From Lachnospiraceae bacterium 3-1 (GTDB lineage Bacteria; Bacillota; Clostridia; Lachnospirales; Lachnospiraceae), in the NCBI GenBank assembly GCA_000403255.2, contig KE159594.1, forward strand, positions 186,001 through 250,000: DNA of 64,000 nt, written 5' to 3'. Made by a program: the position numbers and the translations under genes. Within the stretch, counting starts at the first letter, position 1. Each line of letters begins with the position of its first letter. Shown here in pieces: positions 11,392-27,657 of the stretch. The notes beneath the pieces are model-generated. The model made no database searches. It was not told the origin of the DNA and worked only from the letters and a program-made list of their open reading frames with translations.

Positions 11392-11453
11392 GTCATGAAT
11401 CTGATATTTTTTTCAAATTGATAATATACACAAAAATTTAATTACTATATAAT
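11392..11453 (+). promoter_or_regulatory. Putative glucan-regulon operator and promoter of the GH16 gene
   Basis: Bases 11392-11415 begin GTCATGAATCTGATATTTTT. Near-identical copies (22/24) stand before the ABC operon (21376-21353, minus) and the GH94 pair (21435-21458, plus). The -10 box TATAAT (11448-11453) starts after exactly 32 bases, as at the other sites. The -35 region is poor (TATACA), which fits an activator-dependent promoter. The AraC-type protein at 26872-27657 is the obvious candidate binder, by inference only. Confidence 0.75.
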
Positions 11454-11585
11454 CATTTTTACCATAAAATCTATAATGTTTGCTTTTTTATACTTAGGAA
11501 GGGGGTTATGAAAAAATATAAATTTATGGTAACAAACCAAGGAGAAATCATTGCCGCCCAAATGAATGGGAGAAAGGAAAACAAA

Positions 11586-14500
11586 ATGGACAAAACAAAA
11601 CGGAACAGGCTCCTGGCATTTGCCGTGGCGCTGGCCATGGTATTTACTTCTGTAATGACGCCGTCTGTCCAGGCAGAAGCCGCATCTAGAGGTAAAACTG
11701 TAAAAAATGTAAAATTAAAGATCGGAAAAAAGACTGTGACCAATAAAACATACACTATGACAGCTGGCCAAAAAAAGACAATAAAAGTAACAGTTGCCCC
11801 AAAGACAGCCAAAAAGAACATCACATTCAAATCCAGCAAGAAAAAAGTAGCGACAGTGACTAAAAAGGGAGTCATCACTGCCAGATCTGCCGGAAAAACA
11901 ACAATTACAGTAACTGTTACTGGAAAAGACAAAAAGAAAACGAAAAAGACTGTCAAATTGATAGTCAAGAAGGCCACAGCAGTAAAGAGCATCAAATTAA
12001 CGATTGGAAAAAAAACTGTGACCAATAAAACATATACCATGACATCTGGCCAGACGAAGAAACTAACTGTAACAGTTTCACCGAAAACAGCAAAGAAAAG
12101 CATTGCATTTAAATCTGCTAACCGACGAGTTGCAACCATAAATAAAAGAGGAACAATTACTGCTAAATCCGCCGGAAAAACGAAAATTACAGTAACTGTC
12201 ACAGGAAAAAACAAAAAGAATAAGAAAGCATACATCAACTTGACAGTAAAAAAACCTGGCAATAATGATAACAACAACAATAACAATGATAACAATGATA
12301 ACAACGATAACAATAATAATGATAACACAAAAGAAATACCCGTAACCAGTGTAACAGCAACCATTTCTCCATCTTCCATACAGGTTGGGGCGACGGCACA
12401 GGTGCGCGCTGCTGTACAACCGGGAAATGCAACCAACAAGACCCTTACTTATTCCTCAGGAAACAAAGCGGTAGCTTCTGTGGACAGTGGGGGAAAAGTT
12501 GTGGGTATTAGCGCAGGCAAAACAGCTATTACTGTAAAATCTGCAAATGGAAAAACCGCATCCGTGTCTGTGACAGTTGTGGAAGCGCCTACAACAGGGA
12601 AGACGGATTTGTCCTATGACGGATATAATCTGAAATGGGAAGACAATTTTGATGGAACCAGCCTCAGCAGGGAAGACTGGAATGTAGAAACACATGACCC
12701 CGGATGGGTAAACAACGAGCTCCAGGCATACGTTGATTCAGAGGAAAATATTTTCCTTAAAGATGGCAACCTGGTGCTTAAGCCTGTGGAAAAGGCAAAC
12801 GAGGACGGAACGGTATCCTATACTTCCGGACGTATCAATACACAGAATAAGCACAACTTTAAATATGGATTATTTGAAGCCAAGGTTAAAGTTCCAAAGG
12901 GCCAAGGATTCCTTCCTGCATTCTGGATGATGCCAGCCAACGAAAACCTCTACGGACAGTGGCCCAGATGCGGGGAAATAGATATTATGGAAGTGCTTGG
13001 GCATGAGACCAATAAGTCTTATGGAACCATCCATTATGGAAACCCCCACAGTGAGAGCCAGGGAAATTACACTTTAGCCAGCGGAGATTTTTCAGAAGAG
13101 TATCACGTATTTAACGTGGAATGGGTGCCTGGAAAGATCAGCTGGTATGTGGACGGAACGCTTATCCATACAGAAGATGACTGGTATTCTGCGACAGAAG
13201 GCCAGGGCGAAATCAGCTATCCAGCGCCCTTTGACCAGCCATTTTATATCATTCTGAATCTGGCTGTAGGCGGAAGCTGGCCGGGCAACCCAGATGAGAC
13301 AACGGATATTGCAAGTTCTGCATTTTATGTGGATTATGTACGGGCATACCAGAAAGACAGCTATGACGAAAATGTACAGAAGCCCATCAAAGACGTTGTA
13401 TTAAGAGATCCGGATGCAAACGGAAATTATGTGATAAACGGAAACTTTGCCGTACAGGAAGATCTTACCGACAGCAAAGACTGGAGTTTCCTTACAACAC
13501 TTGGCGGAGAAGGCACAGCATCCATCCAAAATAATGAGATAGCCATCCACACGACGGCCGCTGGAACTGCAGATTACAGCATCCAGCTTGTACAGCCTAA
13601 TCTTCCTATGAAAAAGGGTGGGGTATACCAGCTTACCTTCGATGCATATGCTGACAGCCCCAGGACAATGAAAGTCGACATATCGGCCCCAGACAGGTCT
13701 TACCGCAGATATCTCAATGATACGGCAGTAGATTTAACAACAAGAAAGCAAACATATACCTATAGCTTTACCATGGGTGACAATGATGATGCCAACGCAC
13801 GGCTGGAATTTAATTTAGGTGCGTCTGAATCAACCGCAAACGTACATATCAGCAATGTATCTTTGAAGAAGACAGACGAGATTGTGATTGAAGAAGGCAA
13901 AAAGACAGTCCTGGCAGACGGAAATTATGTCTATAACGGCAGCTTCCAGGAAGGAGAAGGACGTCTTGGCTACTGGAACGTAACGAAGAATCCAGGGTCA
14001 GAAGTAAAGGTAACAAATGAGAATAATATCCGGCGGCTGATGATCAATGCCCCAGAAGGAACATCACCCCAGAATCCTGTCATTGTTTCTCAAGAAGAAC
14101 TGGCGCTGACAGAAGGGAATACCTATGCCCTGAGTTTGAAGGCAGAAGGGGAAAATGGAAAGAGTATCCGACTGAAAGCAGCAGGGAAGGACTTTACCTT
14201 TGCCCTTGCAGGGGAAGAGAAAGAATATGCGGATAAGCTTGTTTTGGACACGAAGCCGACTGATACCAACATTGCATTCTATATCGAACAGCCAGGCGTC
14301 TTTTACATTGACGACGTCAGAATTGAGGAAGACAGCCTGATTAAAAACGGAAGCTTCAACGCAGGATTTGCAGGTTATGAGGCGTTTGTGGATGGAAGTG
14401 CAGCTGCTGAGTATGTAGTGGACAGCCTGAGCGAAGATAATGCGGCAGACTTCAGCATTAAGGATACCGGCGATGCAGACTGGAAGATTCAGTTGAAGCA

Positions 14501-15320
14501 AAATAATGTAAGGCTGGAAGAAGGCCAATGGTACAGGCTTTCCCTGAAAGCGAAATCAAGTATAGAAAGAAAACTGATGTTTGCTATCCAAAGGGACGGG
14601 GTAAAGCATAATGACGATTGGACGCCTTATTCCAATCAGAAAATAGTGGATCTGGGCGGAGAATACCAGATTTATACGGATGAATTCCAGATGACGGAAG
14701 TTTCCGATAACGAAGCGGTATTCAGCATTTCCATGGGTGCAGTGGGAGGCGCTCAGATTACAACACAGCACCGCATTTGCATTGACGATATCAGCCTGGA
14801 GAAAATTGAAGCTCCTGAAACGCCTCCTGTCCAGCAGCAGCCAGGAGAAGACTTACTGGGAGACGGAAATTTTACCGATGGAAAAGGCGCATGGATTGAA
14901 AATGTCATTGCTCCTGGAGAAGCTGCAGTTACTTTTGAAAATGGCAATGCAAAATTTGATATCGCAAATGTTGGAACCGCAGATTGGAACGTTCAGTTAA
15001 AGCGTCCAGGCATCACCCTGCAAAAAGGCAAAACTTATACCATCAGCTTTAGCGCAACCTCTACCGCAGCCCGGGACATTAAAGTTGCTCTATTAAGTGA
15101 AAAAAATGACTGGTACGGCGGAGCGGACTTGTCATTGGAGGCAAATCAGGAAATGCCGTTAACCTTTGACTTTACCATGGAGCAGGAGACAGATTTGAAT
15201 GCAGCATTGGTGGTTTCCATGGGGAAGATAGAAAATAAAGATACCCCTGTATCATCGATTACCCTGAAAGGCTTCTCATTGATTTTGAAAGAGGAGGCGC
15301 AAGAAAATCCGGCAAGCTAA
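11586..15320 (+). CDS. Secreted multidomain endo-beta-glucanase (GH16, laminarinase type) with Ig-like and CBM4_9 domains
   Basis: This 1244-residue exported enzyme likely cuts beta-1,3 or mixed-linkage glucans outside the cell. Order: signal peptide ending near QAEA (about 30); two Lys-rich Big_2-type Ig repeats (about 35-215) that are near copies of each other; an Asn/Asp-rich linker (about 222-245); a third Big_2 repeat (about 250-338); GH16 (about 343-590) with the catalytic GEIDIME, nucleophile E464, D466 and acid/base E469; then four CBM4_9-like modules (about 610-762, 777-915, 916-1075 and 1088-1235). No LPXTG or SLH anchor is seen. The ATG at 11586 gives the cleanest signal peptide. 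An ATG at 11508 with AGGAAGGGGG close upstream would add 26 residues and remains possible. Confidence 0.93.
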   Translation: MDKTKRNRLLAFAVALAMVFTSVMTPSVQAEAASRGKTVKNVKLKIGKKTVTNKTYTMTAGQKKTIKVTVAPKTAKKNITFKSSKKKVATVTKKGVITARSAGKTTITVTVTGKDKKKTKKTVKLIVKKATAVKSIKLTIGKKTVTNKTYTMTSGQTKKLTVTVSPKTAKKSIAFKSANRRVATINKRGTITAKSAGKTKITVTVTGKNKKNKKAYINLTVKKPGNNDNNNNNNDNNDNNDNNNNDNTKEIPVTSVTATISPSSIQVGATAQVRAAVQPGNATNKTLTYSSGNKAVASVDSGGKVVGISAGKTAITVKSANGKTASVSVTVVEAPTTGKTDLSYDGYNLKWEDNFDGTSLSREDWNVETHDPGWVNNELQAYVDSEENIFLKDGNLVLKPVEKANEDGTVSYTSGRINTQNKHNFKYGLFEAKVKVPKGQGFLPAFWMMPANENLYGQWPRCGEIDIMEVLGHETNKSYGTIHYGNPHSESQGNYTLASGDFSEEYHVFNVEWVPGKISWYVDGTLIHTEDDWYSATEGQGEISYPAPFDQPFYIILNLAVGGSWPGNPDETTDIASSAFYVDYVRAYQKDSYDENVQKPIKDVVLRDPDANGNYVINGNFAVQEDLTDSKDWSFLTTLGGEGTASIQNNEIAIHTTAAGTADYSIQLVQPNLPMKKGGVYQLTFDAYADSPRTMKVDISAPDRSYRRYLNDTAVDLTTRKQTYTYSFTMGDNDDANARLEFNLGASESTANVHISNVSLKKTDEIVIEEGKKTVLADGNYVYNGSFQEGEGRLGYWNVTKNPGSEVKVTNENNIRRLMINAPEGTSPQNPVIVSQEELALTEGNTYALSLKAEGENGKSIRLKAAGKDFTFALAGEEKEYADKLVLDTKPTDTNIAFYIEQPGVFYIDDVRIEEDSLIKNGSFNAGFAGYEAFVDGSAAAEYVVDSLSEDNAADFSIKDTGDADWKIQLKQNNVRLEEGQWYRLSLKAKSSIERKLMFAIQRDGVKHNDDWTPYSNQKIVDLGGEYQIYTDEFQMTEVSDNEAVFSISMGAVGGAQITTQHRICIDDISLEKIEAPETPPVQQQPGEDLLGDGNFTDGKGAWIENVIAPGEAAVTFENGNAKFDIANVGTADWNVQLKRPGITLQKGKTYTISFSATSTAARDIKVALLSEKNDWYGGADLSLEANQEMPLTFDFTMEQETDLNAALVVSMGKIENKDTPVSSITLKGFSLILKEEAQENPAS

Positions 15321-15346
15321 ACAGAGCTGGCACCCTTGAAGCAAGT

Positions 15347-15377: not shown

Positions 15378-15440
15378 CACCCGCAGGGCACTTACCCTCG
15401 CGGGAATAAACTCTAAACTTAATGATATGTCCTGAATATA

Positions 15441-17888
15441 TTACCCCAGCCTTCCTGCCATGGCAATCACCCGTCCTGCGCAAGCGCAAATATCATCTTT
15501 TGTCAACTCTCCCCTCTCATATGCTTTTCTGATATCTGCATCATCCTCTGGATTTCCCGGCATGATAATATCATTCCCAGCAGCAACACATTTCCACGGC
15601 ACACTTCCGTCTTCTGGAATCGTTGTATTCCAGTCTGACATAATCACGCCTTCAAATCCCCACTCCTTACGCACCACAGTTGTGCAGATATCTCCATTAT
15701 TTGCCGCATGAACGCCATTAATCAGGTTATAAGAAGACATAATGGCTATGGGAGCGCTTTTCTTTACCGCAATCTCAAACCCACGAAGATAGATTTCCCG
15801 AAGCGCTCGTTGAGAAATACAAGCATCCAGCCCCATCCGGTTATCCTCCTGGTTATTGCAGGCAAGATGCTTGATGGTTACGCCACACTTTCCACTCTCC
15901 TGCACCCCAGAGGTTACGGCCGCTGCCAACATCCCTGACAAATATGGATCCTCGGAATAATATTCAAAATTGCGCCCACACAAAGGGTTTCTTTGAATAT
16001 TCATCCCTGGAGCCAGCCACAAATCCACATAAAATTCCTCCATCTCCACCGCAATGGCTTGTCCAAACCTCTTCATCACCTCTGTATCCCAGGTCTGCGC
16101 CAATAATGTGCCAACGGGAAATGCTGTGCAAAACTGATAGTAAGTATCTGCATCCTCATGGTATTCCATTTCTTCCAAAAATCCATTCTCTAAAGAACCC
16201 AGAACTCCAACCCCATACACGGAATCTGTCTTCCTATCTACCTGATAGCTTTGCCGCAGACGAAGCCCAGCGGGACCATCTGCCATAACCAGAGAACGTA
16301 TTCCATACTTTTTCTCTAACCCTTCTGATGTTTCTCCGGCTGAGCCAGGCACCCGAACCCCAGCAGAGCCAAGGTTGCTGGTCCCTTGGGTGATGTTTCC
16401 ATACAGAAGAGGAATCACTTCTTCCACAGACTGCTCAACGGCAATTGGCTTTTTTTCTTCCCTCTTCTCTGCTTTGGGAAGGAATTGAAAAACAGGTATT
16501 TTCTGTTCCCTTTCCAATTTCATCCATTCTTCCGCCCTATTTCTTACCGCTTCTGTCCTAGCTATATCCTGGAATGCTGCCTGCTTCGGACATATTTCTT
16601 CTGTCTCTTCCAAAATTACTGTTTCTGGAACTGTAAGGAATGCTGCCAGCTTTAAAGATGCAGAATGATTCCCAATCCACAGGCCATACATGCCCCCTTC
16701 CACAATCCAGGCCAGCTTTTCTTCCGAGAAGCTGGCAAACTGCTTCTGTTCAATAACAACCGTAACCCTCTGACTCTCTCCTGGCTCCAAAGAACCTGTC
16801 TTGACAAATCCTGCCAGCCGCTTATATTCTTTTCCAAGACTTGTCTGGGGTGGCGTTACATAAATCTGCACCACCTCCCTGCCAGAATAAAAGTCTCCTG
16901 TATTTGTCACAGTAACTGTCACCGCAACTTCTGTTTCCAGTACCTTAAGCTTTTCAAATTCAATCGAAAAATCCGTATAAGAAAGTCCATAACCAAACGG
17001 GAATAGCGGTTCTATTCCAAAATTGTCAAAATACCGATATCCCACATATATTCCTTCCTTGTACTCTTCCCTTTTCAAGTTTCCCTTCAAATATCCAAAA
17101 TTTTCCGCAAAAGGATAATCCCCATAATGTTTTGCCCATGTAGCAGTCAGCCTCCCTCCTGGCATGGCCTTTCCAAAGAGCACATCTGCAACTGCATGAC
17201 CTCCTTCCTGGCCAGGCAGGGAAATGTTTAAAACCGCCTGGATGTTTCCTGCTTCCTGCAAAATATCTGTCAGCTCTATGGGTGCGCCCACATTCAAAAG
17301 TAACGCAATAGGTATATTTTTCTGATTCAGATATAAAATATCTTCTCTCTCCCTTGCGCTTAAATAATAATCGCCCTCTTCCTTACGGCGGTCTTTCCCC
17401 TCACCGGAAATGCGGCTGAGTACATAAACAACTGCCGAAGCCCCTTTGATATCCTCTTCTTCTATTTTTCGTCCCTCCGGCAAGGCAAAAGGATTTGTTG
17501 CATAAGCATCAAATGGATTATCCACCTGTTTCGCATCCTTTAGAACCTTTTGCTTCCATTTATTTCTTGCATCCTCATAACAGTTCTGGTAATCCAACAG
17601 CCATCTCTCACTTGTGATACATGCGCCCGCTTCTTTCATCCCTTTGTATATGGAGATATTCTCCCGATTATTTACATCCCCAGAACCCGTCCCACCTTTG
17701 ACCGTTTTCTCTGCTCCACTGCCAAACAGTGCAATCGGCTCTGAAAGCTCCAAGGGAAGCATTCCTTCATTTTTCAAGAGAACGAACCCTTCGGCCGCCA
17801 GCTCTCTACTCAGTCTGCCATGCATAAGTTCCCTGTTTGAAATTTCTTTTTCCATGGTTCCGCTGTGAACCTGTCTCATTACTGCCAT
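15441..17888 (-). CDS. GH3 beta-glucosidase with swapped (C-first) domain order
   Basis: A cytoplasmic beta-glucosidase of 815 residues without a signal peptide. The usual GH3 order is reversed. The protein opens with the GH3 C-terminal domain (AAEGFVLLKNEGMLPL, then FGSGAEKTVKGGTGSGDV), continues with a fibronectin-III-like part (VTNTGDFYSGREVVQIYV) and ends with the catalytic barrel, where GVIMSDWNTT carries the nucleophile Asp near the C-terminus. This order is known from Butyrivibrio and Ruminococcus beta-glucosidases. The start at 17888 sits six bases after GGAG. It is the fourth gene of the sugar ABC operon, 123 bases after the second permease, so it likely hydrolyses imported glucan oligomers. 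Confidence 0.92.
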   Translation of the reverse strand: MAVMRQVHSGTMEKEISNRELMHGRLSRELAAEGFVLLKNEGMLPLELSEPIALFGSGAEKTVKGGTGSGDVNNRENISIYKGMKEAGACITSERWLLDYQNCYEDARNKWKQKVLKDAKQVDNPFDAYATNPFALPEGRKIEEEDIKGASAVVYVLSRISGEGKDRRKEEGDYYLSAREREDILYLNQKNIPIALLLNVGAPIELTDILQEAGNIQAVLNISLPGQEGGHAVADVLFGKAMPGGRLTATWAKHYGDYPFAENFGYLKGNLKREEYKEGIYVGYRYFDNFGIEPLFPFGYGLSYTDFSIEFEKLKVLETEVAVTVTVTNTGDFYSGREVVQIYVTPPQTSLGKEYKRLAGFVKTGSLEPGESQRVTVVIEQKQFASFSEEKLAWIVEGGMYGLWIGNHSASLKLAAFLTVPETVILEETEEICPKQAAFQDIARTEAVRNRAEEWMKLEREQKIPVFQFLPKAEKREEKKPIAVEQSVEEVIPLLYGNITQGTSNLGSAGVRVPGSAGETSEGLEKKYGIRSLVMADGPAGLRLRQSYQVDRKTDSVYGVGVLGSLENGFLEEMEYHEDADTYYQFCTAFPVGTLLAQTWDTEVMKRFGQAIAVEMEEFYVDLWLAPGMNIQRNPLCGRNFEYYSEDPYLSGMLAAAVTSGVQESGKCGVTIKHLACNNQEDNRMGLDACISQRALREIYLRGFEIAVKKSAPIAIMSSYNLINGVHAANNGDICTTVVRKEWGFEGVIMSDWNTTIPEDGSVPWKCVAAGNDIIMPGNPEDDADIRKAYERGELTKDDICACAGRVIAMAGRLG

Positions 17889-17912
17889 CATTTTCTCCTT
17901 TCTATTGCAAAG

Positions 17913-18011: not shown

Positions 18012-18857
18012 TTATTCTTTCACTCCTCCAAGGGTTACACCTGCAATAATATATTTTGACAGGAACAGATACACAAGAATAATTGGCACAATCGCTACCA
18101 AAATCATCGTATATATTTTTCCCATATCAAAATTCATATAATCCGCTCCCCGCAATGTGGCAATCAAAATCGGCACTGTCATCTTATCCTTTGACTGAAT
18201 CACCAAGGCTGGAACGAAATAATTATTCCAGGAGCCTACAAAGGTAAAAATTGCCTGTACTGCAATCGCCGGTTTCATAATCGGAATCACAATCCGGTTA
18301 AAGGTTCGAAATTCCCCGGAACCGTCAATCCTTGCCGCCTCTATCAATGACATTGGAAGAGAAGACTGTAGATAACTGTACATAAAATAAAACACGGCCG
18401 GAGACGCAATGGATGGGATAATCAACGGCAGCAGGGAATCATACATGCCCAGATTTGTAACCAACCGTAAAAATCCCATTGCAGTAACCTGTGTAGGCAT
18501 AACAAGAATAGCCATTATAAATGTAAATGCTGCTTTCTTTAATTTAAAATTATACGCATACAGACCATAAGCTGTCAATGAAGAAAAATATGTACAGATT
18601 GCCGCTGAACAACCAGAAACAATCAAACTGTTTAAAATTCCCCGGAACATAGGAAAGGTTCCGTCATTTGCAACATTCTTTAGATTTTCCAGCAAATAGC
18701 TTCCTGGAAGAGCAGAAAAGCCTTTTTGTAAATCTGCATGGGACCTTGTAGCGTTGACAAACAGGATATAAAAGAAAAACAAACACATAAATGACAGGAG
18801 CACCAGCAGCACATGTGCAAAAATGCTTCGTAAATGGTTTGGGCTCTTTGATTTCAT
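18012..18857 (-). CDS. Carbohydrate ABC transporter permease (MalG/LacG type)
   Basis: A 281-residue inner-membrane permease with six predicted helices. The EAA loop reads EAARIDGSGEFRTFNRIVIPIMKP split over residues about 190-213, the contact site for the shared ATPase of CUT1 sugar importers. The start lies two bases from the stop of the first permease. The operon (binding protein, permease, permease, GH3) has no ATPase, which is usual for Gram-positive CUT1 systems that use a common MsmK-like subunit encoded elsewhere. The likely substrate is a beta-glucan oligosaccharide, judged from neighbours. Confidence 0.93.
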   Translation of the reverse strand: MKSKSPNHLRSIFAHVLLVLLSFMCLFFFYILFVNATRSHADLQKGFSALPGSYLLENLKNVANDGTFPMFRGILNSLIVSGCSAAICTYFSSLTAYGLYAYNFKLKKAAFTFIMAILVMPTQVTAMGFLRLVTNLGMYDSLLPLIIPSIASPAVFYFMYSYLQSSLPMSLIEAARIDGSGEFRTFNRIVIPIMKPAIAVQAIFTFVGSWNNYFVPALVIQSKDKMTVPILIATLRGADYMNFDMGKIYTMILVAIVPIILVYLFLSKYIIAGVTLGGVKE

Positions 18858-18859
18858 AG

Positions 18860-19810
18860 CTATCCCCTCCTTTGCTTTTTCGCTTTTTTCGCAGCCGCCT
18901 TGGAACCATCCGGGTCGTCATTATTTGTCATCCGGTATACGATAAAGCACAGGATACCACTGACTACAAACAAATATACGGACAATGCACCTGCCATACC
19001 GTAGTTTTTGCTTTTCAGATGGCTATTCAGGAACATAATCAGAGTCATAGCGGTACGGTCTGGCGTCCCCTGCCCATTGGTCAAAATCTGAGGCACATCA
19101 AACATCTGAAGTCCGCCAATAATAGAAGTGATTAACGTATAAGCAAGAATCGGCCTTATCTGGGGAAGGGTAATAAAGAAAAACCGCTGTATACTGTTGC
19201 AGCCATCCAACTCTGCCGCCTCAAATACATCCGGGCTGATACCCATAATGGCAGCCATCAGCATAATCGTGGTATTCCCAAACCACATCAGAAAATTCAT
19301 AAATCCTACCAGTGATCTGGTTCCCAATACAGACCCCAGAAAATCAATGGGCTCACCGATGAATCCCATTGACATCAAAATGGAATTGATAGGACCGTTG
19401 GTAGAGAACATGGTAAAAAACAACATAGCAAACGCAGATGCCATAATCAAATTCGGCAGATAAATAACCACCTTAAAAAACTGTGTCCCATGGATTTTCA
19501 GGCGGGCGTCCACGAACCACTCTGCAAGCAGTAATGCAATTACAATCTGAGGAATAAATCCTATGATCCATAATATTAAGGTATTGCCTGCATATTTAAG
19601 CATATCTGATCCCAGAAGGCTTACATAATTTTCAAGGCCAATAAAATTAGGCCCCACTTCTTTAATTCCGGAACGGTAATATTCAAAAAAACTGTACCGG
19701 ATGGTATCTACCAAAGGAATCAAAGAAAAGATAAAAAAACTTACAAAAAACGGAAGGATGAAAAGATATCCCCATTTGGAATAATCAATTTTTTTATTTT
19801 TCGGTTTCAT
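18860..19810 (-). CDS. Carbohydrate ABC transporter permease (MalF/UgpA type)
   Basis: A 316-residue permease, the partner of the next gene. Six helices are visible, beginning YLFILPFFVSFFIFSLI, with the EAA loop FEAAELDGCNSIQRFFFITLP in the second half. I chose the ATG at 19810 (MKPKNKK), preceded by AGGGGTGG at six bases, over an upstream in-frame ATG at 19879 that lacks a good site. The C-terminus is Lys-rich (AAAKKAKKQRR). It lies 72 bases after the binding protein gene. Confidence 0.93.
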   Translation of the reverse strand: MKPKNKKIDYSKWGYLFILPFFVSFFIFSLIPLVDTIRYSFFEYYRSGIKEVGPNFIGLENYVSLLGSDMLKYAGNTLILWIIGFIPQIVIALLLAEWFVDARLKIHGTQFFKVVIYLPNLIMASAFAMLFFTMFSTNGPINSILMSMGFIGEPIDFLGSVLGTRSLVGFMNFLMWFGNTTIMLMAAIMGISPDVFEAAELDGCNSIQRFFFITLPQIRPILAYTLITSIIGGLQMFDVPQILTNGQGTPDRTAMTLIMFLNSHLKSKNYGMAGALSVYLFVVSGILCFIVYRMTNNDDPDGSKAAAKKAKKQRRG

Positions 19811-19882: not shown

Positions 19883-21259
19883 TTATTCTGGCCACTGAAT
19901 TTCAGTAATATCCGGGTAACGCTCCCTGATGGCAGTCTCAAAATTTGACTTTGCCTTTTCAAAATTTACATTCCCCTGAAAATAATCATTAAAGGAATTC
20001 TGAATTAACTCCACACAGCCCTGGTCATAGGCAGAGAGGGGAGCTATCTTAATATTCTCTGCAACAGGGGTGAAATATTTGAATGCATTCTGTCCACCCA
20101 GAAAATCCGATGCATAGCCTGCATCATCCTTTGCTGCCTCCTGCATTCCGCTCTGCGTATTCGTAAAGTCCAGATACTCTTTTGAAATTTTTAACAGGTT
20201 GTCTTTATTGGCAGTAACTGCAAGAATAATGTCTTTTACATGCTGAGGATTATCTGTACCAGTACATGCATGAACATAGGAACCGCCCCAATTGTATTCC
20301 TGAGGAGGATTGGTAACCGCCCATATGCCGTCATCGCCATCCCAATTGGGTTTCAACGTAAAATCAATTCCCCATGCCGGAAACAGAAATGCAAATACTT
20401 TTGACTCAGAACTCATGGCTTTGTTCCAATCATCATTCCACTGACCCTTGATATTTTTATCCAGATAGCCTGCATCCAGCCATTCCTTCGAATCGCTGAC
20501 CCAGTCCATGATTTTTTGATCAACTTTGATCACAGATTCCCCAGGGCTGACCCAGGATTCCGAAATGCTGTTACCATAGAGCCGGAAGGTATCTGCGTAA
20601 GAAGAAAATACAAAATATCCCTTTGTTTTTAATTCCTCTGCGGTTGCCTTCATGGTTTCCCAGTCCTTTACCTTCTTTGCAACTTCTTCCGGGTCATCTG
20701 TACCAAATACATCTTTGGCTATATCTCTGCGATATACCAACAACCCTGGGCAGCACTGCCAGGTAGATGCTCTCTGGACGCCGTTTACATCTGAAGCAGT
20801 CACCTTTGTAAAGCTATACTGGTCTGCCAGATCCTTCTCTGGGTCAATCCCCAAATCTGAAAGAGGCATCGCTGCATCCGCTTCTGCATCGGTATACTTA
20901 TTCACATAATCTGTCTCTGACAAAAAGATATCTACCTTGTCATCTGGGGCTGCATCAGCTTGCTTCATCAATGCTTCATCCAGTTTCTGCTGATAAACAC
21001 CGTCCTGATTAGGATTAATAATCCAGTGAATCTCCGTTCCATCCTTCAAAGTGGTCACCGTTCCATCCTTCGAGGTTTTTTTTACCTCTGGATACACCGC
21101 TTCCACACGCTGACGGAATTCATCATTCCAACTGTAAATATTGATGACTTTCCCTTCTTCCGCGCCTGATCCGGTTTCATCTGTGCCCTTCCCGCATCCG
21201 GCCAACGCGCCTGCGGCTAAGGCTGCTGCCAAAAGAATACTGACTGCTTTCTTTTTCAT
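19883..21259 (-). CDS. Extracellular sugar-binding lipoprotein of the glucan ABC importer
   Basis: A 458-residue solute-binding protein of the CUT1 type (SBP_bac_1 family). The signal peptide ends in lipobox LAGC with cysteine at residue 22. The mature part has an Asp-rich front and aromatic residues in the C-lobe (WNDDW, FPAWGIDF, YNWGGSYVH) suited to stacking on sugar rings. GGAGG lies ten bases before the ATG. It is the first gene of the operon and faces the GH94 pair across a 270-base divergent control region. The likely ligand is an oligosaccharide from beta-glucan, inferred from context. Confidence 0.92.
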   Translation of the reverse strand: MKKKAVSILLAAALAAGALAGCGKGTDETGSGAEEGKVINIYSWNDEFRQRVEAVYPEVKKTSKDGTVTTLKDGTEIHWIINPNQDGVYQQKLDEALMKQADAAPDDKVDIFLSETDYVNKYTDAEADAAMPLSDLGIDPEKDLADQYSFTKVTASDVNGVQRASTWQCCPGLLVYRRDIAKDVFGTDDPEEVAKKVKDWETMKATAEELKTKGYFVFSSYADTFRLYGNSISESWVSPGESVIKVDQKIMDWVSDSKEWLDAGYLDKNIKGQWNDDWNKAMSSESKVFAFLFPAWGIDFTLKPNWDGDDGIWAVTNPPQEYNWGGSYVHACTGTDNPQHVKDIILAVTANKDNLLKISKEYLDFTNTQSGMQEAAKDDAGYASDFLGGQNAFKYFTPVAENIKIAPLSAYDQGCVELIQNSFNDYFQGNVNFEKAKSNFETAIRERYPDITEIQWPE

Positions 21260-21314: not shown

Positions 21315-21376
21315 ATTATAACTTAACTTCTTGAACGAATATACTACGAATTTTAACAAAATATCAGATTCATGAC
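21315..21376 (-). promoter_or_regulatory. Putative glucan-regulon operator and promoter of the ABC-GH3 operon
   Basis: Read on the minus strand, 21376-21353 begins GTCATGAATCTGATATTTT and matches the GH16 site at 22 of 24 bases. After 32 bases comes TATAAT (21320-21315), followed by the binding protein start 56 bases on. The -35 region is weak. The site lies 58 bases from the divergent copy that serves the GH94 genes. Confidence 0.75.
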
Positions 21377-21434
21377 ACCTTTTCTTAATATTGCAGATTT
21401 TCTTATTCCCCGTCATTTAAGGAATTTATTTTAG

Positions 21435-21496
21435 GTCATGATTCTGATATTTTTCTCATATTTCTGATTTTCTAAATAAAAAAAGTTTTATATGAT
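21435..21496 (+). promoter_or_regulatory. Putative glucan-regulon operator and promoter of the GH94 pair
   Basis: Bases 21435-21458 begin GTCATGATTCTGATATTTTT and match the GH16 site at 22 of 24 positions. TATGAT (21491-21496) starts after 32 bases. TTCTGAT occurs again 20 bases downstream of its first copy (21442 and 21462), two helical turns, as expected for two AraC-type half-sites, but this second half is not evident at the other promoters. The predicted leader is only about 27 bases. Confidence 0.75.
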
Positions 21497-21529: not shown

Positions 21530-24259
21530 TTGAAACATATAAAATTTACCGACAACTCTGGCAGCTTTACCATGGAACAGCCAGAAAATACCAGTTATTT
21601 GTATTTCCCTCTTGCCTCGGAAGCTGGATTAAAAAGCGCTGTAACGCCGAATCTTGGGGGCGATGCTAAGATTAACCAGGAAACCTTTCTTTTAGAACCA
21701 GTAAGCTCAGAAAATCTCCATAATAACCGTTCTGTCCGAAACTTCTGGTTCACAACAAAGAACAAGGAGATTTATTCCGTTACGGGAGCTTCTGCCCAGC
21801 AGGAAGCGGCAAAGTTCTCTCCCCAACAGGAAAAAAGTGAGTTGACCGCAGGCTTCATGTGGCAAACATTAAAACGTACTTCCAAAGCTTTACAGCTTAC
21901 ATCCACAGTCAGCATCTTTATCCCAAAGGATGAAAATGTTGAAATCATGTATATTACTGTACAAAATCAAGGAGAAGCTGCACAGAAACTGACTGGCTAT
22001 GGCGCTATCCCAATTTACGGCCGCAGTGCAGACAATATCCGAGACCATCGGAATGTAACCTCCATGCTCCATCGTATTAATATAAAAGAAAATGGGATAT
22101 ATGTGTGTCCTACCATGTCCTTTGATGAAAAAGGCCACCGCCCCAACCACTGGATTTATTATGCACTGGGTTGTACAGGCAGTGGCAATGTACCAGAAAG
22201 CTTTTACCCAACTGTGGAAGATTTTCTTGGAGAAGGAGGCGCCTTCACCCATCCTCGGGCCGTATACGAATCGCATCCAGGAACTCCTGCTCCCTGCCAA
22301 GCAGCAGGAAAAGAAGCTATGGGAGCTTTTCGCTTTGCTCCTATCACCCTGGCCCCTGGCCAGCAGACAGAATATATCCTTCTTCTTGGAGCAGAAGATA
22401 ATGAGGAAAAAATTAACTATATTTTCCAAAAATATTGCACCTCCCAACAGGTGCAAAAAGCTTTCACAGAAACAAAATCTTACTGGCAGGCAAAGGTAGA
22501 CGCTAACTTTCATACCAGTGATGCAGATTTTGACTGTCTCATGAAATGGGTCAGCTTCCAGCCCTTCCTGCGTCGGTTATTTGGCTGCTCCTTCCTCCCT
22601 CATCATGACTATGGTCGCGGTGGCCGGGGATGGCGGGATCTTTGGCAAGACTGCCTTTCTCTGCTTCTCATGGAGCCAAAAAATGTCAGGGACATGATAA
22701 TCAAAAACTATGGCGGCGTGCGCATGGATGGCACAAATGCTACGATTATAGGAGCCGGAGACGGAAACTTTCTGGCAGACCGTAACGGCATTGCCCGGGT
22801 CTGGATGGATCATGCACTCTGGCCGCTGATAACCACAAAGCTCTATATTGACCAGACAGGCGACATTGCTATTTTGAACCAACAGGTTCCTTATTTTAAG
22901 GATGCACAGATTATGCGTGGGACAGCCCTGGATACTCTTTGGAGCGATCAGGATGGAAGCAGACAGCGTACAGAAAAAAATGAAATTTATACCGGAAGTA
23001 TTCTGGAACACCTTTTAATCCAGCAGCTTACTGCTTTCTATGAAGTAGGAGACCACAACATCTACCGTCTGCGGGATGCAGACTGGAATGATGCCCTGGA
23101 TATGGCTTCCCAAAAAGGAGAAAGCGTTGCTTTTACCTGTGCCTATGCCGGCAATCTACTGGAGCTTGCAGCTATGATACGTTTATTAGACAGCGCTGCC
23201 CAGGAACATACCGTTCTTCTCACAGAAGAGATAAAGCTCCTGCTTTGCAGCGATACAGAAATTTATGATGATATCAGCAAAAAGCAAGGAATTTTAAACG
23301 ATTATGTTTCCTGTTGTAAGCACACCATTCCTGGCAGACGTACCAGCTTTGCCCTTTCCCACCTTGCCGCAGACTTAACCCAAAAGGCTCACTGGCTGAT
23401 GAACCATCTAAGGAATCAGGAATGGTTGGAAACAGGGAATGAAGAAGGCTGGTTTAACAGTTATTATGACAACCATGGATGCGCTGTGGAAGGAATACAC
23501 AACGGGCAGGTCCGCATGATGCTGACGGGTCAGGTTTTCGCCATCATGAGCGGCACAGCAGAAAATGCACACATCCAAAAAATAATCAAAAGCGCTGATC
23601 ATTACCTTTACCGAAAAGAAATCGGCGGCTACCGCCTCAATACAGATTTTCAGGAACTGAAATTCGATCTGGGACGCATGTTTGGATTTGCCTATGGAGA
23701 AAAAGAAAACGGCGCGGTTTTCTCCCATATGACTGTCATGTATGCAAATGCCCTCTATCGCCGTGGATTTGTGCAGGAAGGATGGAAAGCCTTAAAAACC
23801 CTTGCTGACACTGCCTTGAATTTTGATGTCAGTCATATTTATCCAGGCATCCCGGAATATTTCCGTTCGGATGGCCGTGGGATGTACCACTATCTCACTG
23901 GTGCGGCAAGCTGGTACATGTTAACCATGATTACAGAAGTCTTCGGCGTCCGGGGAGAAGCCGGGGATTTGGTCTTGCGCCCCAAGCTTTTGGCAGAACA
24001 ATTTGATTCCCAAGGAACTGCCTCCATCGCCGTTCCTTTTGCCGGAAAACATTTTGCCATTACTTATAAAAATAAATCTGGTAAAAATTTCGGAAATTAC
24101 ACCATTGGTTCCGCTCTCTGCGACCAAACAGAGCTTACCGTATGTGAAGGTTCCTTTGCAGTCCTTCCACGGACTATGCTGGATACCATGTCGAATGATA
24201 TGCACGAAATTATAATTGAACTCATAGAATGCCAGGAAATAATAGGCAATTGCGAATAA
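21530..24259 (+). CDS. GH94 glycoside phosphorylase, laminaribiose-phosphorylase-like
   Basis: A cytoplasmic inverting phosphorylase of 909 residues that splits a beta-glucoside with phosphate to give glucose-1-phosphate. GH94 marks include HHDYGRGGRGWRDLWQD, ADRNGIARVWMDHALW and the catalytic acid in RDADWNDALD near residue 517. Length and N-terminus (KFTDNSGSF, LYFPLASEAG) resemble the laminaribiose phosphorylase group of GH94 as I remember it, rather than the 810-residue cellobiose enzymes. The exact linkage cannot be read from sequence. I chose TTG at 21530: AAAGGAG sits eight bases before it and overlaps the only earlier ATG (21512), which has no ribosome site of its own. Confidence 0.87.
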   Translation: MKHIKFTDNSGSFTMEQPENTSYLYFPLASEAGLKSAVTPNLGGDAKINQETFLLEPVSSENLHNNRSVRNFWFTTKNKEIYSVTGASAQQEAAKFSPQQEKSELTAGFMWQTLKRTSKALQLTSTVSIFIPKDENVEIMYITVQNQGEAAQKLTGYGAIPIYGRSADNIRDHRNVTSMLHRINIKENGIYVCPTMSFDEKGHRPNHWIYYALGCTGSGNVPESFYPTVEDFLGEGGAFTHPRAVYESHPGTPAPCQAAGKEAMGAFRFAPITLAPGQQTEYILLLGAEDNEEKINYIFQKYCTSQQVQKAFTETKSYWQAKVDANFHTSDADFDCLMKWVSFQPFLRRLFGCSFLPHHDYGRGGRGWRDLWQDCLSLLLMEPKNVRDMIIKNYGGVRMDGTNATIIGAGDGNFLADRNGIARVWMDHALWPLITTKLYIDQTGDIAILNQQVPYFKDAQIMRGTALDTLWSDQDGSRQRTEKNEIYTGSILEHLLIQQLTAFYEVGDHNIYRLRDADWNDALDMASQKGESVAFTCAYAGNLLELAAMIRLLDSAAQEHTVLLTEEIKLLLCSDTEIYDDISKKQGILNDYVSCCKHTIPGRRTSFALSHLAADLTQKAHWLMNHLRNQEWLETGNEEGWFNSYYDNHGCAVEGIHNGQVRMMLTGQVFAIMSGTAENAHIQKIIKSADHYLYRKEIGGYRLNTDFQELKFDLGRMFGFAYGEKENGAVFSHMTVMYANALYRRGFVQEGWKALKTLADTALNFDVSHIYPGIPEYFRSDGRGMYHYLTGAASWYMLTMITEVFGVRGEAGDLVLRPKLLAEQFDSQGTASIAVPFAGKHFAITYKNKSGKNFGNYTIGSALCDQTELTVCEGSFAVLPRTMLDTMSNDMHEIIIELIECQEIIGNCE

Positions 24260-24281
24260 AAAGGAAAGGATACTTTGTAAT

Positions 24282-26693
24282 ATGAAATATGGATATTTTG
24301 ACGACGACAACAGAGAATATGTCATTGAACGGCCTGACACACCAACCCCTTGGGTAAATTATTTAGGTTCCCCGGAATATGGAGCAATCATCTCCAACAA
24401 TGCAGGTGGCTACAGCTTTACAAAGTCCGGCGCAAACGGACGTATCCTGCGCTATATTTTCAACAGCTTTGATATGCCTGGACGATATCTTTACATTCGT
24501 GACAATCATTCCAAAGATTACTGGTCCGCTTCCTGGCAGCCCGTTGGAAAAGATTTAAACGATTATAAAAGCAATTGCCGCCATGGAATGGGCTATACCC
24601 ATATGGATGCTACATACGACGGAATTTCTTCCAGAGCCTCTTACTATGTTCCCCTGGAAAAATCTTATGAAGTATGGGCGTTATCCCTGACCAATCATTC
24701 CGAGCATCCCCGGGAGCTAACCTTAACCGGGTATGCAGAATTTACCAATCACAGCAATTATGAGCAGGACCAGGTAAATCTCCAATATTCCTTATTTATT
24801 GGCAGAACCATATTTGAAAAAAACCGTATCATGCAAAAGATACATGGAAACCTGGACGCTCTAAAGGAGCATGAAAAGGTAGATGAAAAAAATGTAACAG
24901 AACGTTTTTTCGGTCTTGCTGGCGCCGAAGTTTTCTCCTACTGCGGAGATAAAGACCATTTTCTTGGAAAATATCATGGATACAATAACCCCCAAGGCAT
25001 TGCATCCGGCAATCTTGGAAATGTCACAAGCTACAATGAAAATTCCTGTGGCTCTCTCTCCTGTATCATCACTCTTGCCCCAGGGGAGACAAAAACAATT
25101 GCATTTCTGTTAGGGGAAAAATATTCCCAGGAAGCAGCGGCTATTCTTGCTGCCTATGAGGATACAGCAAAAACCATTGAAAAGGAACTAGCTGAATTGA
25201 AAGGCTATTGGCATAAAAAGCTAGATCATCTGAAAGTAAATACCCCCAGCTCAGAATTCAACACCATGGTCAACACATGGAATGCCTACAATTGCTTTAT
25301 GACCTTCCTTTGGTCTCGTGCAGCCTCTTTTATCTACTGTGGCCTGCGCAATGGGTATGGCTACCGTGACACAGTACAGGATATCCAGGGCATCATCCAC
25401 CTTGCACCAGAACTGGCAGCAGATAAAATCCGGTTTATGCTCTCTGCCCAGACAAGTAACGGCGGCGGCCTTCCCCTGGTAAAATTTACCCACAATCCCG
25501 GGTATGAGGATACCCCAGACGACGCTTCCTACCGTGAGGAAACCGGACATCCGGCATATCGGGCAGATGACGCCCTCTGGCTGTTCCCAACAATCTATAA
25601 ATATATTTCTGAAACAGGAAATATTGATTTTCTGAAAGAAAATATCCCTTATGCGGATAAGGAAACAGACAATGTATACCACCATTTAAAACGTGCCGTT
25701 GAATTTTCCTTCCAACGTCTTGGCCCTCATGGTATGCCTGCCGGACTTTATGCAGATTGGAACGACTGCCTACGACTAGGAGCAAATGGAGAATCTACTT
25801 TTGTTGCCCTGCAGTTTTATTATGCCATGACAATTTTAAAAGAGTTTGCTGTATACATGCAGGATTCCGATTACCTGAAATATTTGGAGGAAAAACAAAA
25901 GGAGATGGGTGAACGCATCCAAACACTATGCTGGGATAATGACAGATTCATCCGCGGCTATACGGAAGAGGGCGCACGTATCGGAGCAGCCGCAGACCCA
26001 GAAGCCAACTTATGGTTGAATCCTCAAAGCTGGGCCATCATCAGCAAAGTTGCAGATACCTCACAGACAGAAACCATATTGGACAATGTCTATCAACGGC
26101 TAAACACCCCATATGGCGCACTGCTGATGGATCCGCCTTACCATACGCATGCCTTTGACGGTGCGCTGGCTGTCATTTACAATCAGGGCACAAAGGAAAA
26201 TGCTGGCATCTTCTCCCAATCCCAGGGCTGGCTCATTCTTGCAGAAGCACTCAGCGGCCACGGAGAACGGGCTTTCACTTACTTTATGGAAAACGCACCT
26301 GCAGCACAGAACGACCATGCAGACATCCGCCATTTGGAGCCATATTGTTATGGACAGTTTACAGAAGGAAGAGCCAGCAAACATCCGGGCCGTTCCCATG
26401 TTCACTGGCTCACCGGTACTGCCTCCACCGTTATGGTAGGATGCGTAGAAGGAATTTTAGGACTTCGTCCGGACCCGAATGGAATTACCCTATCCCCCTC
26501 TATCCCCAAAGACTGGGCTAGCTTTGAAATAGATAAGGATTTTCGGGGATGTCGTCTACACATTCTAGTAGAAAATCCTGACAGGCAGGAATCCGGCTGC
26601 AAAAAACTTACATTGAATGGAAAGCAGCTAACTGGAAATTATATCCCAGCCAGCCTTCTTCTAGAGCAAAATGAAATTGTACTGACTATGTAA
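24282..26693 (+). CDS. GH94 glycoside phosphorylase, cellobiose-phosphorylase-like
   Basis: An 803-residue cytoplasmic phosphorylase. It opens KYGYFDDDNREYVI, very like clostridial cellobiose phosphorylases, and shows RNGYGYRDTVQDIQG, the catalytic acid in YADWNDCLRLG near residue 491, and the C-terminal GRSHVHWLTGTAS, which contributes to the phosphate site. The usual size is about 810, so it is full length. It lies 22 bases after the first GH94 gene and shares its promoter. Two phosphorylases of different length suggest that dimers of different linkage, or dimers and longer chains, are handled separately. Substrate assignment is tentative. Confidence 0.88.
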   Translation: MKYGYFDDDNREYVIERPDTPTPWVNYLGSPEYGAIISNNAGGYSFTKSGANGRILRYIFNSFDMPGRYLYIRDNHSKDYWSASWQPVGKDLNDYKSNCRHGMGYTHMDATYDGISSRASYYVPLEKSYEVWALSLTNHSEHPRELTLTGYAEFTNHSNYEQDQVNLQYSLFIGRTIFEKNRIMQKIHGNLDALKEHEKVDEKNVTERFFGLAGAEVFSYCGDKDHFLGKYHGYNNPQGIASGNLGNVTSYNENSCGSLSCIITLAPGETKTIAFLLGEKYSQEAAAILAAYEDTAKTIEKELAELKGYWHKKLDHLKVNTPSSEFNTMVNTWNAYNCFMTFLWSRAASFIYCGLRNGYGYRDTVQDIQGIIHLAPELAADKIRFMLSAQTSNGGGLPLVKFTHNPGYEDTPDDASYREETGHPAYRADDALWLFPTIYKYISETGNIDFLKENIPYADKETDNVYHHLKRAVEFSFQRLGPHGMPAGLYADWNDCLRLGANGESTFVALQFYYAMTILKEFAVYMQDSDYLKYLEEKQKEMGERIQTLCWDNDRFIRGYTEEGARIGAAADPEANLWLNPQSWAIISKVADTSQTETILDNVYQRLNTPYGALLMDPPYHTHAFDGALAVIYNQGTKENAGIFSQSQGWLILAEALSGHGERAFTYFMENAPAAQNDHADIRHLEPYCYGQFTEGRASKHPGRSHVHWLTGTASTVMVGCVEGILGLRPDPNGITLSPSIPKDWASFEIDKDFRGCRLHILVENPDRQESGCKKLTLNGKQLTGNYIPASLLLEQNEIVLTM

Positions 26694-26778
26694 GAGCAGC
26701 GCTACTCTGCCTCCTCAATCTTTAGGGACTTGTACGGTTTGCTGCGCCGAGTGCGCATATTATTTTTTATTCTATAGG

Positions 26779-26825
26779 AAAGACAGGATTGCCCAGTTTG
26801 TGTACAAAGGGGCAATCCTGTCTTT
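26779..26825. terminator. Terminator hairpin between the GH94 pair and the AraC-type gene
   Basis: The arms AAAGACAGGATTGCCC (26779-26794) and GGGCAATCCTGTCTTT (26810-26825) give a perfect 16-bp stem. The A-rich and T-rich stem ends allow termination from both sides. The flanking genes converge (stops at 26693 plus and 26872 minus). Confidence 0.85.
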
Positions 26826-26871
26826 GATCCATATCCAAATATAAAAAGCTCTCTTTCCATGCGATTCATCC

Positions 26872-27657
26872 TCAGCAGTCTGATTTTTTCAAGGTGGGTT
26901 CTGCACCAATGTCAATATCCCACTGTACCATATAATTATTATCACGGTATTTTTTCGGTGTGATGCCTTCAAATTCCCGAAACTGCTGAATAAAATGGCT
27001 CTGGGAAGAAAAAGACAAACGATTTGCAATCTCAATAATAGAATAATCACTATAGCGCAATAGGTTCTTTGCCTTTTCCATCTTCTGTCTTCGGATATAG
27101 GCGCTGACAGAATCCCCTGTCTCTTTCTTAAACAGTCGGGAAAGATAGCTGGCAGATACTCCCAGCTCATCTGCCAAATCTTCAATGGTAATACGTTCTT
27201 TTATATGGGAGTATATATATTCCTTACATGCGCTAATATGACGGGAATTCGTATCACTTCTGCGAAACTTACGCATTTTTTCTGCATAATCCAATACCAT
27301 CTCATCATGCAGATCCCGCATAGCTGACACCGTATGGATATCATCTAACTTCTGAATATAAAAATCACTCATCCGAAAAGCCTGTTCCAATTCCATGCCA
27401 TTCTGTTTACACAAGCGTGTAATCATTGCTGTTGTTATCACAAAATGATATTTCAAATTAGTCATTGGATTTCTAGACAGAATGCCAACTCCTTCACTGT
27501 CCAAAAATCTTTCTTGCTCACAATTTTTCCGAACCGCTTCCACATTACCATCGGATACCGCCTGATAGAACAAAAATTCTTCTGTGGGCGGCCTGTGCTC
27601 CATCTCATCTATGTCATCTTCTGCTTCGAAAAGAAGCCACTCATCTTGATATCCCAT
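26872..27657 (-). CDS. AraC-family transcriptional regulator, candidate activator of the glucan genes
   Basis: A 261-residue regulator. The C-terminal 100 residues hold two helix-turn-helix motifs (ITIEDLADELGVSASYLSRLF and the conserved SFSSQSHFIQQFREFEGITPKKYR, each read in parts). The N-terminal half is a helical domain with NPMTNLKYHFVITTAMITR and DLHDEMVLDY, a type seen in other clostridial AraC proteins, not the sugar-binding cupin of AraC itself, so the signal is unknown. I chose ATG 27657 with GGAGG seven bases before it. Its place beside the GH94 genes suggests that it binds the repeated sites at 11392, 21353 and 21435. No copy of that site was found before its own gene. Confidence 0.9.
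   Translation of the reverse strand: MGYQDEWLLFEAEDDIDEMEHRPPTEEFLFYQAVSDGNVEAVRKNCEQERFLDSEGVGILSRNPMTNLKYHFVITTAMITRLCKQNGMELEQAFRMSDFYIQKLDDIHTVSAMRDLHDEMVLDYAEKMRKFRRSDTNSRHISACKEYIYSHIKERITIEDLADELGVSASYLSRLFKKETGDSVSAYIRRQKMEKAKNLLRYSDYSIIEIANRLSFSSQSHFIQQFREFEGITPKKYRDNNYMVQWDIDIGAEPTLKKSDC

Follow-up and report, generated by a model that had tools for sequence, protein, structure and literature searches.

A probable mixed-linkage beta-glucan utilization locus of the Blautia producta type in Lachnospiraceae bacterium 3-1, with a putative phosphorylase relay and an associated CBM4-bearing chemoreceptor

The window, that is, the whole stretch of 64,000 nucleotides analyzed here (Lachnospiraceae bacterium 3-1, contig KE159594.1, positions 186,001 to 250,000), contains a predicted beta-glucan utilization locus and, upstream of it, a chemoreceptor gene (Table 1). 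A sequence-only reading had described a complete locus comprising a secreted GH16 enzyme with the motif GEIDIME, a CUT1 importer without an ATPase, a cytoplasmic GH3 enzyme, GH94 proteins of 909 and 803 residues, and an AraC regulator. Calling of open reading frames (ORFs) together with Pfam profiles recovered all of these genes within 11392-27657. Both GH94 genes, along with those for GH16, GH3, the permeases, and AraC, exceed the Pfam cut-offs and are thus not chance matches. "Complete" went too far in one respect only, the importer ATPase being encoded elsewhere. The operator-like sites, the swapped domains of GH3, and the upstream receptor did not figure in that reading.

Table 1. Features of the locus and of the upstream receptor pair, numbered from the first nucleotide of the window
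Feature	Position	Strand	Basis
Lipoprotein sugar-binding protein (Peripla_BP_4, MglB/RbsB-like), directly 5' of chemoreceptor	3726..4691	+	ORF from 3654; Pfam
Chemoreceptor (MCP), CBM4 inserted in sensor region	4716..7229	+	Pfam; paralogue alignment
Inserted CBM4, receptor residues 124-291	5085..5588	+	Alignment, AF2, fold search
Operator-like site upstream of GH16	11390..11410	-	Motif search
Secreted GH16 (ExDxxE), 3 Big_2 + 4 CBM4	11586..15320	+	ORF from 11508; Pfam, PDB matches
GH3 beta-glucosidase, swapped domain order, probably cytoplasmic	15441..17891	-	ORF from 17960; Pfam
CUT1 permease 2	18012..18857	-	Pfam BPD_transp_1
CUT1 permease 1	18860..19810	-	ORF from 19879; Pfam BPD_transp_1
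Solute-binding lipoprotein	19883..21259	-	Weak PDB matches to solute-binding proteins
Operator-like site, left half of inverted pair, divergent promoter	21358..21378	+	Motif search
Operator-like site, right half of inverted pair	21433..21453	-	Motif search
GH94, laminaribiose phosphorylase type, 909 aa from TTG	21530..24259	+	Pfam, PDB match
GH94, BpGH94MLG orthologue, 803 aa; catalytic D495, Y633	24282..26693	+	Pfam, PDB match
AraC-type regulator	26872..27657	-	ORF from 27690; Pfam

The locus belongs to the mixed-linkage-glucan type published for Blautia producta (PMC10318527). Like the gpPUL of that species, it combines a secreted GH16 bearing ExDxxE and four CBM4 modules, a GH94 orthologous to BpGH94MLG, and an AraC regulator, a solute-binding protein, and permeases, all together. 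In the GH16 reading frame, Pfam places three Big_2 domains, the GH16 domain, and four CBM_4_9 modules, with EIDIME at residues 490-495; signal peptides were judged by eye, as present in GH16 and absent from GH3. By analogy with BpGH16MLG, the secreted enzyme would release tri- and tetrasaccharides from mixed-linkage glucan or laminarin. A locus devoted mainly to laminarin or another beta-1,3-glucan, with the shorter GH94 trimming occasional beta-1,4 units, would agree with the best PDB matches of GH16, which are endo-beta-1,3-glucanases and laminarinases, with its own ExDxxE motif, with the beta-1,3 specificity of laminaribiose phosphorylase, and with the reported binding of laminaritriose by BpSBPMLG (PMC10318527). 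We consider it unlikely. According to the same report, barley glucan induces the orthologous locus, the kcat/Km of the B. producta GH16 is lower for laminarin than for barley glucan or lichenan, and laminarin is said not to support growth of B. producta (PMC10318527). Mixed-linkage glucan, among the diets first suggested, stands as the likely one, given the homologous locus in B. producta (PMC10318527).

The importer comprises two BPD_transp_1 permeases and a solute-binding protein, the latter having no Pfam match at E 0.001, and there is no ATPase gene in the locus. The genome has a single match to OB_MalK (PF17912), on another contig, in a product that looks MalK/MsmX-like by eye; no permease gene lies in the 3.2 kb around it. 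PF08402 was rejected as a marker for the importer ATPase after it returned a permease-adjoining protein, PotA-like by eye. Oligosaccharides would enter through the binding protein and the two permeases, possibly powered by the MalK/MsmX-like ATPase encoded elsewhere. Inside the cell, the GH3 enzyme, in which Pfam finds the order GH3_C, Fn3, GH3_N, could hydrolyze leftovers such as cellobiose. The idea that import is followed by both hydrolysis and phosphorolysis has support as a reading of the locus.

The two GH94 proteins differ in their probable substrates. The longer one is encoded by an ORF of 915 aa from the first ATG or 909 aa from TTG 21530; the latter length fits, since a well-spaced Shine-Dalgarno-like AAAGGAG precedes this TTG. 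Its match to 6ggy runs along nearly the whole length (940 bits, against 98 for the next chain), and it carries DWND at residues 524-527 and GWRD at 373-376, corresponding to the WND and RD motifs described for laminaribiose phosphorylase (PMC6771811). It is laminaribiose phosphorylase-like, as had been proposed, its closest PDB match being PsLBP of Paenibacillus sp. YM-1 (6GGY). The shorter GH94 had been taken for a cellobiose phosphorylase, and this part of the sequence-only reading did not hold. Residues 1-801 align without gaps to 8bou (1353 bits), which is BpGH94MLG (PMC10318527), and on this match the protein is the BpGH94MLG orthologue. The B. producta enzyme reportedly acts on G4G3G and G4G4G3G, with laminaribiose among the products, but on neither cellobiose nor laminaribiose (PMC10318527). 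The catalytic Asp is retained in 80 of 80 named relatives, and the Tyr that separates this group from chitobiose phosphorylase is Tyr in 75 and Phe in 5. An identity as chitobiose phosphorylase was rejected, with Y633 standing where ChBP has V631, the Val that marks that enzyme (PMC10318527), and a score of 534 bits, the next after 8bou. Cellobiose phosphorylase was likewise rejected, the nearest characterized enzyme being BpGH94MLG.

These assignments bear on how the two enzymes divide the work. Two disaccharide phosphorylases working in parallel, on laminaribiose and cellobiose respectively, would be compatible with both proteins being GH94 and with cellobiose phosphorylases appearing among the PDB matches of the shorter one (409-462 bits). 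That arrangement is highly improbable in view of the reported inactivity of the 8bou enzyme on cellobiose, and the locus of one relative shows what a cellobiose phosphorylase-like gene looks like: its third GH94 matches 3qde with 1238 bits and 8bou with only 448. The presence of this third enzyme also fits the cellobiose branch of the proposed scheme. With the specificity of the shorter GH94 corrected, the parallel scheme becomes a relay, which the two enzymes probably form. Specifically, the 803-aa enzyme, by analogy with BpGH94MLG, would release Glc1P from beta-1,4-linked glucosyl units and stop at laminaribiose, and the 909-aa enzyme, by analogy with PsLBP, would split laminaribiose into Glc1P and glucose. 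On G4G4G3G the yield would be 3 Glc1P + 1 glucose, and a two-phosphorylase relay of this kind would appear to save energy.

The genomic pairing of the two genes is consistent with a relay. In a 299-genome sample, a laminaribiose phosphorylase gene lies within 15 kb of 19 of the 23 close short-GH94 genes (at least 66% identity) and within 200 bp of 16 of them, compared with none of 30 genes of this type at 60-65% identity, where the 66% line was set after seeing the data and the counts ignore relatedness. Among 80 named loci, 59 include laminaribiose phosphorylase, in every case on the same strand. The shorter GH94 occurs without it in 11 of the 43 named loci with full flanks, 7 of these in Treponema, which, together with the empty 60-65% class, indicates that the relay is not obligatory.

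Regulation of the locus may run through a short operator. A 19-mer pattern has three sites in the 5.08-Mb genome, all in the locus, compared with none for the reversed-pattern control, and the AraC protein, whose start at 27657 and Pfam score agree with the regulator described earlier, may act at these sites. In relatives, the operator may serve to list the regulon. It precedes the receptor gene group in five relatives, weakly in one. For the receptor in the window, there is no convincing operator upstream. The best candidate scored 4.5, a value reached by only 3 of 500 random stretches, and is oriented in a way seen at none of the other promoters; in a promoter and terminator scan of 3400-11700, sites were no more frequent than in shuffles.

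The receptor gene itself lies 4.3 kb upstream of the locus, outside the interval described earlier, with three unrelated genes between. Its product has a signaling domain (MCPsignal, 116.5 bits) and a CBM_4_9 match of 59.1 bits (cut-off, 25.9), and a CBM-less paralogue in the same genome aligns to it on both sides of the insert. A dCache type of sensor is a tentative assignment, suggested by the paralogue and by low scores: the dCache profile (PF22673) reaches 21.9 bits, below the cut-off of 27, with a weak PctC match of 18.8 bits. A whole-ectodomain AF2 model built on 3 sequences has a pLDDT of 40. The inserted module is modeled at pLDDT 93, with 1gui as its best fold (Z 21.3, rmsd 1.8, 146 aligned), and is 60% identical over 167 aa to the first CBM4 of GH16. 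Genome-wide, CBM_4_9 has five matches, four in GH16 and one in the receptor. The receptor seems, from these likenesses, to have taken over a beta-glucan-binding domain of the GH16 type. In a tree, the six receptor CBM4s group against 36 others (95/85, from a bootstrap that had not settled). Once three distant CBM4s are included, the six no longer form one side of a branch, and a single origin is thus likely, not more. Recent copying of the module from GH16 to the receptor within this one genome is unsupported, given that the six group together.

Full-length CBM4 receptors are rare, turning up in 4 of the 397 genomes of the family when no more than four candidates were scored in each; an order-level search of 392 genomes, in which the matching ones were nearly all of the same family, returned a full-length match only in the receptor's own genome. 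The genome-wide search placed the receptor in three other genomes, beside the laminaribiose phosphorylase gene in all three, and two further receptors were found inside named loci, so that two of the five relatives were detected only through position in a locus. An orthologue of the sugar-binding protein (67-72% identity) lies directly upstream of the receptor in 5/5 relatives. It could be argued that receptor and locus are neighbors by chance in the window, through two separate insertions. Another genome of the genus lacks the receptor pair here, with ~78 bp instead of 3.9 kb, and the glucan locus sits between pyrD and pyrE, which are adjacent in two relatives, so receptor and locus occupy different sites; the lack of a convincing operator before the pair points the same way. 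We nevertheless find chance quite unlikely in light of the three genomes in which the receptor adjoins laminaribiose phosphorylase.

Binding to fiber is the usual role of CBM4 modules, and the one in the receptor could be a passive anchor of the receptor or the cell to fiber, without signaling. We regard this as possible, though doubtful: the module persists in six species, among which the aligned parts of the receptor genes share 64-70% DNA identity, its aromatics are retained (W158 and Y189 in 6/6), it sits inside the sensor region, and the locus operator stands before the gene group in the five relatives. If the receptor does signal, it would sense beta-glucan through the CBM4 and possibly sugars through the neighboring binding protein, directing swimming; flagellin and CheA genes are present, and the cell may steer toward the fiber it eats. 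The fuller account is, in our judgment, evenly balanced between right and wrong: a CBM4 of the GH16-first-CBM4 lineage was inserted, probably once, in the sensor domain at the loop carrying DPR in the paralogue, so that a single locus has its enzyme and its receptor recognize a common polysaccharide, the sugar-binding protein serving as second input and the operator wiring the receptor to the locus in relatives. It offers a specific candidate mechanism by which a motile gut bacterium could move toward dietary fiber itself instead of its breakdown products.

Taken together, our results make it likely that this is a mixed-linkage beta-glucan utilization locus of the B. producta type in which two phosphorylases act in relay and with which a polysaccharide chemoreceptor is associated. 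The locus bp1313-bp1318 of B. producta ATCC 27340 shares with it a GH16_3 with four CBM4s, the GH94 orthologue, AraC, the solute-binding protein, and transporter genes (PMC10318527). The published locus lists one GH94, whereas here laminaribiose phosphorylase and GH3 genes lie inside the locus (that report's two GH3s are, by their numbers, encoded elsewhere), operator sites are defined, and a CBM4 chemoreceptor is nearby; the main text of that report names laminaribiose phosphorylase in one place, as a structural homologue, and never refers to chemotaxis (PMC10318527). In GH161-GH94 tandem loci, adjoining oligosaccharide and disaccharide phosphorylase genes are likewise proposed to act sequentially, and importers mostly lack an ATPase (PMC6484121), but in the present locus the two enzymes both belong to GH94, and mixed-linkage glucan is a more probable substrate than pure beta-1,3 glucan. 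MCP genes also occur within the polysaccharide loci of Lachnospiraceae, in Roseburia gpPULs, with no carbohydrate-binding module described in the accessible parts of those reports (PMC11913394, PMC5320581). The kind of locus is already known and the CBM4 chemoreceptor is the putative new element; the passages covered by the literature search describe no CBM within a chemoreceptor, and since subscription papers fell mostly outside that search, its novelty is not proven. In cellulolytic clostridia, CBM-bearing RsgI anti-sigma sensors couple an extracellular CBM to a transmembrane signal with transcription as the output, whereas the receptor described here would give a chemotactic output from a CBM inserted in the sensor region.

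All the genes that the sequence-only reading had assigned to a beta-glucan locus at 11392-27657 (GH16, GH3, an importer, two GH94 enzymes and an AraC regulator) were found in the window. They run in the order GH16 (+), GH3 (-), permease 2, permease 1 and solute-binding lipoprotein (SBP; -), then, across a divergent promoter, long GH94 (+), short GH94 (+) and AraC (-). A profile search of the genome (5.08 Mb, 27 contigs) for PF17167 at E 0.001 matched only the two GH94 genes. A swapped GH3 domain order is known for Ruminococcus albus enzymes. Matches of the window GH3 to the PDB beta-glucosidases 5wug and 5k6l begin near the N-terminus and span some 450-550 residues, which suggests an identical order in both, so the arrangement is not new. 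Many related loci also carry a GH3 homologue: 21 of the 43 that have full flanks, among the best 80 of at least 592. The pyrE-pyrD gap is 17.9 kb in the window (11188-29107), compared with about 200 bp in the relatives L143 and L144. The glucan locus occupies this gap and was thus apparently inserted within the pyr genes.

Positions of operator-like sites, the GH3 gene, and chemoreceptors without a CBM4 match in or beside other beta-glucan loci
Feature	Location	Position	Remark
Operator-like site	window	11390-11410	AAAATATCAGAWTCATGACMC, up to 3 mismatches
Operator-like site	window	21358-21378	AAAATATCAGAWTCATGACMC, up to 3 mismatches
Operator-like site	window	21433-21453	AAAATATCAGAWTCATGACMC, up to 3 mismatches
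GH3	window	15441-17960	domain order swapped: GH3_C, Fn3, GH3_N
Chemoreceptor	L070	8157-9857	
Chemoreceptor	L074	18145-19878	
Chemoreceptor	L036	16049-17758	
Chemoreceptor	L012	811-2397	

The best PDB match of the short GH94 is 8bou (1353 bits, residues 1-801 without gaps), followed by chitobiose phosphorylase (534 bits) and cellobiose phosphorylases (409-462 bits). According to the accessible text of PMC10318527, 8BOU is BpGH94MLG from Blautia producta, which is inactive on cellobiose, laminaribiose and laminaritriose, acts on cellotriose, G4G3G and G4G4G3G, and forms laminaribiose, cellobiose and Glc1P from barley glucan. Carried over from this orthologue, the same specificity is predicted for the short GH94. 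Among the best 80 of at least 592 named relatives, the catalytic Asp (D495) is conserved in 80, and Y633, a Tyr in place of the ChBP valine, is Tyr in 75 and Phe in 5. Residues 8-904 of the long GH94 match 6ggy (PsLBP) at 940 bits, with the second-best chain at 98 bits. Laminaribiose is the sole substrate phosphorolysed by GH94 laminaribiose phosphorylase (LBP) in the available portion of PMC6484121, and this specificity, likewise carried over, would apply to the long GH94. Several LBP matches in the genome search contain one internal stop (e.g., G136, G111, G028, G162), though in some of these the stop may simply terminate a gene that is a little shorter.

With up to three mismatches, AAAATATCAGAWTCATGACMC has three window sites against 0.02 expected. 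The 19-mer, allowing up to two mismatches, occurs three times genome-wide, always at these sites, and its reversed control never. The 14-base operator core is present in 25 of 138 related loci, including L003, the window's own genome; in the part of the 25 compared with gene maps, core sites precede SBP, LBP, short GH94 or GH16 genes. We infer that the AraC protein binds these candidate operators.

A second tblastn match to GH16 (5085-5585) falls within a chemoreceptor gene (4716-7229) and corresponds to the sensor region. Over 167 aa, the CBM4 of this receptor shares 60% identity with the first of the four in GH16; identity to the remaining three, over different stretches, is 26-29%; the genome's five CBM_4_9 matches are these four and the receptor's own. 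A paralogue in the same genome (contig C1) lacks CBM4 and is alignable on both flanks of the insert, so about 175 receptor residues take the place of a short DPR-carrying loop of the paralogue. In fold, the CBM4 model (pLDDT 93) comes closest to a laminarinase CBM4, 1gui (Foldseek E 2.3e-12; Z 21.3, with 146 residues aligned at rmsd 1.8). Engineered xylan-binding CBM4s follow so closely (Z 20.3 and below) that the ligand is not deducible from fold alone. Y189 and Y231 align with two 1gui Trp residues that we take to be sugar-binding; Y189 is conserved in 6/6 receptors and 34/36 other CBM4s of this type, and position 231 is aromatic in 6/6 and 36/36. The genome has six flagellin matches and two CheA matches, the second (C24:230513-230704) within window ORF 43532-45664.

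Full-length relatives of the receptor sensor occur in 4 of 397 family genomes, including its own (up to four candidates scored per genome), and in the order draw only in its own genome among 392. In L123, L124 and L125 the receptor gene immediately precedes LBP (2-29 bp gap); the L124 short GH94 is located on a different contig. Further receptors in L031 and L045, from a scan of the best 80 of at least 592 named loci, are no test of linkage because they were findable only within 10 kb of a short GH94. Linkage was thus seen in 3/3 relatives free of this search bias, which affects two of the five. Across six species in total, receptor DNA is 64-70% identical where aligned. All five other receptors exceed the cut-off for CBM_4_9 and MCPsignal, and all five relatives have an orthologue of the sugar-binding protein immediately upstream. 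This pair also precedes LBP in L031 and follows the permeases in L045. In a tree, the six receptor CBM4s formed one group against 36 others (95/85; bootstrap not settled), which was not recovered once distant outgroups were added.

An operator matrix built without the loci of these five relatives was used to score the 200 bp upstream of the binding-protein gene against 500 random stretches. Best scores in L031, L123, L124 and L125 were 18.8, 10.9, 21.1 and 13.0, equalled by 0, 0, 0 and 1 random stretches, each site lying on the opposite strand from its gene, as at the window's other promoters. L045 had no operator in these 200 bp; a site scoring 29.6 lies ahead of its SBP, at the start of a gene series that ends with the receptor pair and, from its spacing, is probably one transcription unit. 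For the window pair the best score was 4.5, on the other strand and reached by 3/500 random stretches, and we claim no operator there. Because the window receptor lies outside the gene cluster and has no convincing operator, its functional link to the locus is taken from the relatives, three of them free of search bias, and would hold by analogy. In G176, of the same genus, about 78 bp (L146 14286-14363) stand in place of window 3475-7398, which holds the binding protein and chemoreceptor genes. Roseburia polysaccharide loci contain MCP genes (PMC11913394), classed as regulators (PMC5320581), in the accessible text of both reports. This text describes no chemoreceptor with a carbohydrate-binding module, within a literature search that covered mainly open-access papers.

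Among 299 family genomes (matches at E 1e-150; up to three candidates scored per genome; those below 60% identity excluded), 53 scored genes were at least 60% identical to the short GH94. In the class of at least 66% identity (23 genes, including one contig-end fragment), LBP lay within 15 kb of 19, within 200 bp of 16, and somewhere in the same genome for 21. The four without LBP nearby were in G076 and G064, where it is on a separate contig, and in G040 and G070, which have none. None of the 30 genes at 60-65% identity was near LBP, with 10 in LBP-bearing genomes; LBP occurred in 24 of 249 genomes having neither class. Fisher's P for the upper class versus LBP was 4e-16, with the 66% line set post hoc and relatedness ignored. 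Among the best 80 of at least 592 named loci, LBP was present in 59, always on the same strand, within 200 bp in 52, upstream of the short GH94 in 53 and downstream in 6. Where 9 kb was available on each side, 32 of 43 had LBP, and Treponema made up 7 of the 11 without it. Among the matches listed, the tandem occurs in Lachnospiraceae, Faecalibacterium/Gemmiger, Oscillibacter/Flintibacter and two Streptococcus species. L123 also has a third, cellobiose phosphorylase-like GH94 (5409-7853).

Laminaribiose, a reported end product of the short-GH94 type, would be the substrate of the long GH94; by arithmetic on the reported reactions, one G4G4G3G would yield three Glc1P and one glucose. We found no description of a two-GH94 relay for mixed-linkage glucan in the accessible parts of the literature examined. 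The relay principle itself is known, since sequential action was already proposed, in the available portion of PMC6484121, for a GH161-GH94 phosphorylase tandem. That tandem, however, joins two families, whereas both members of the window tandem are GH94.
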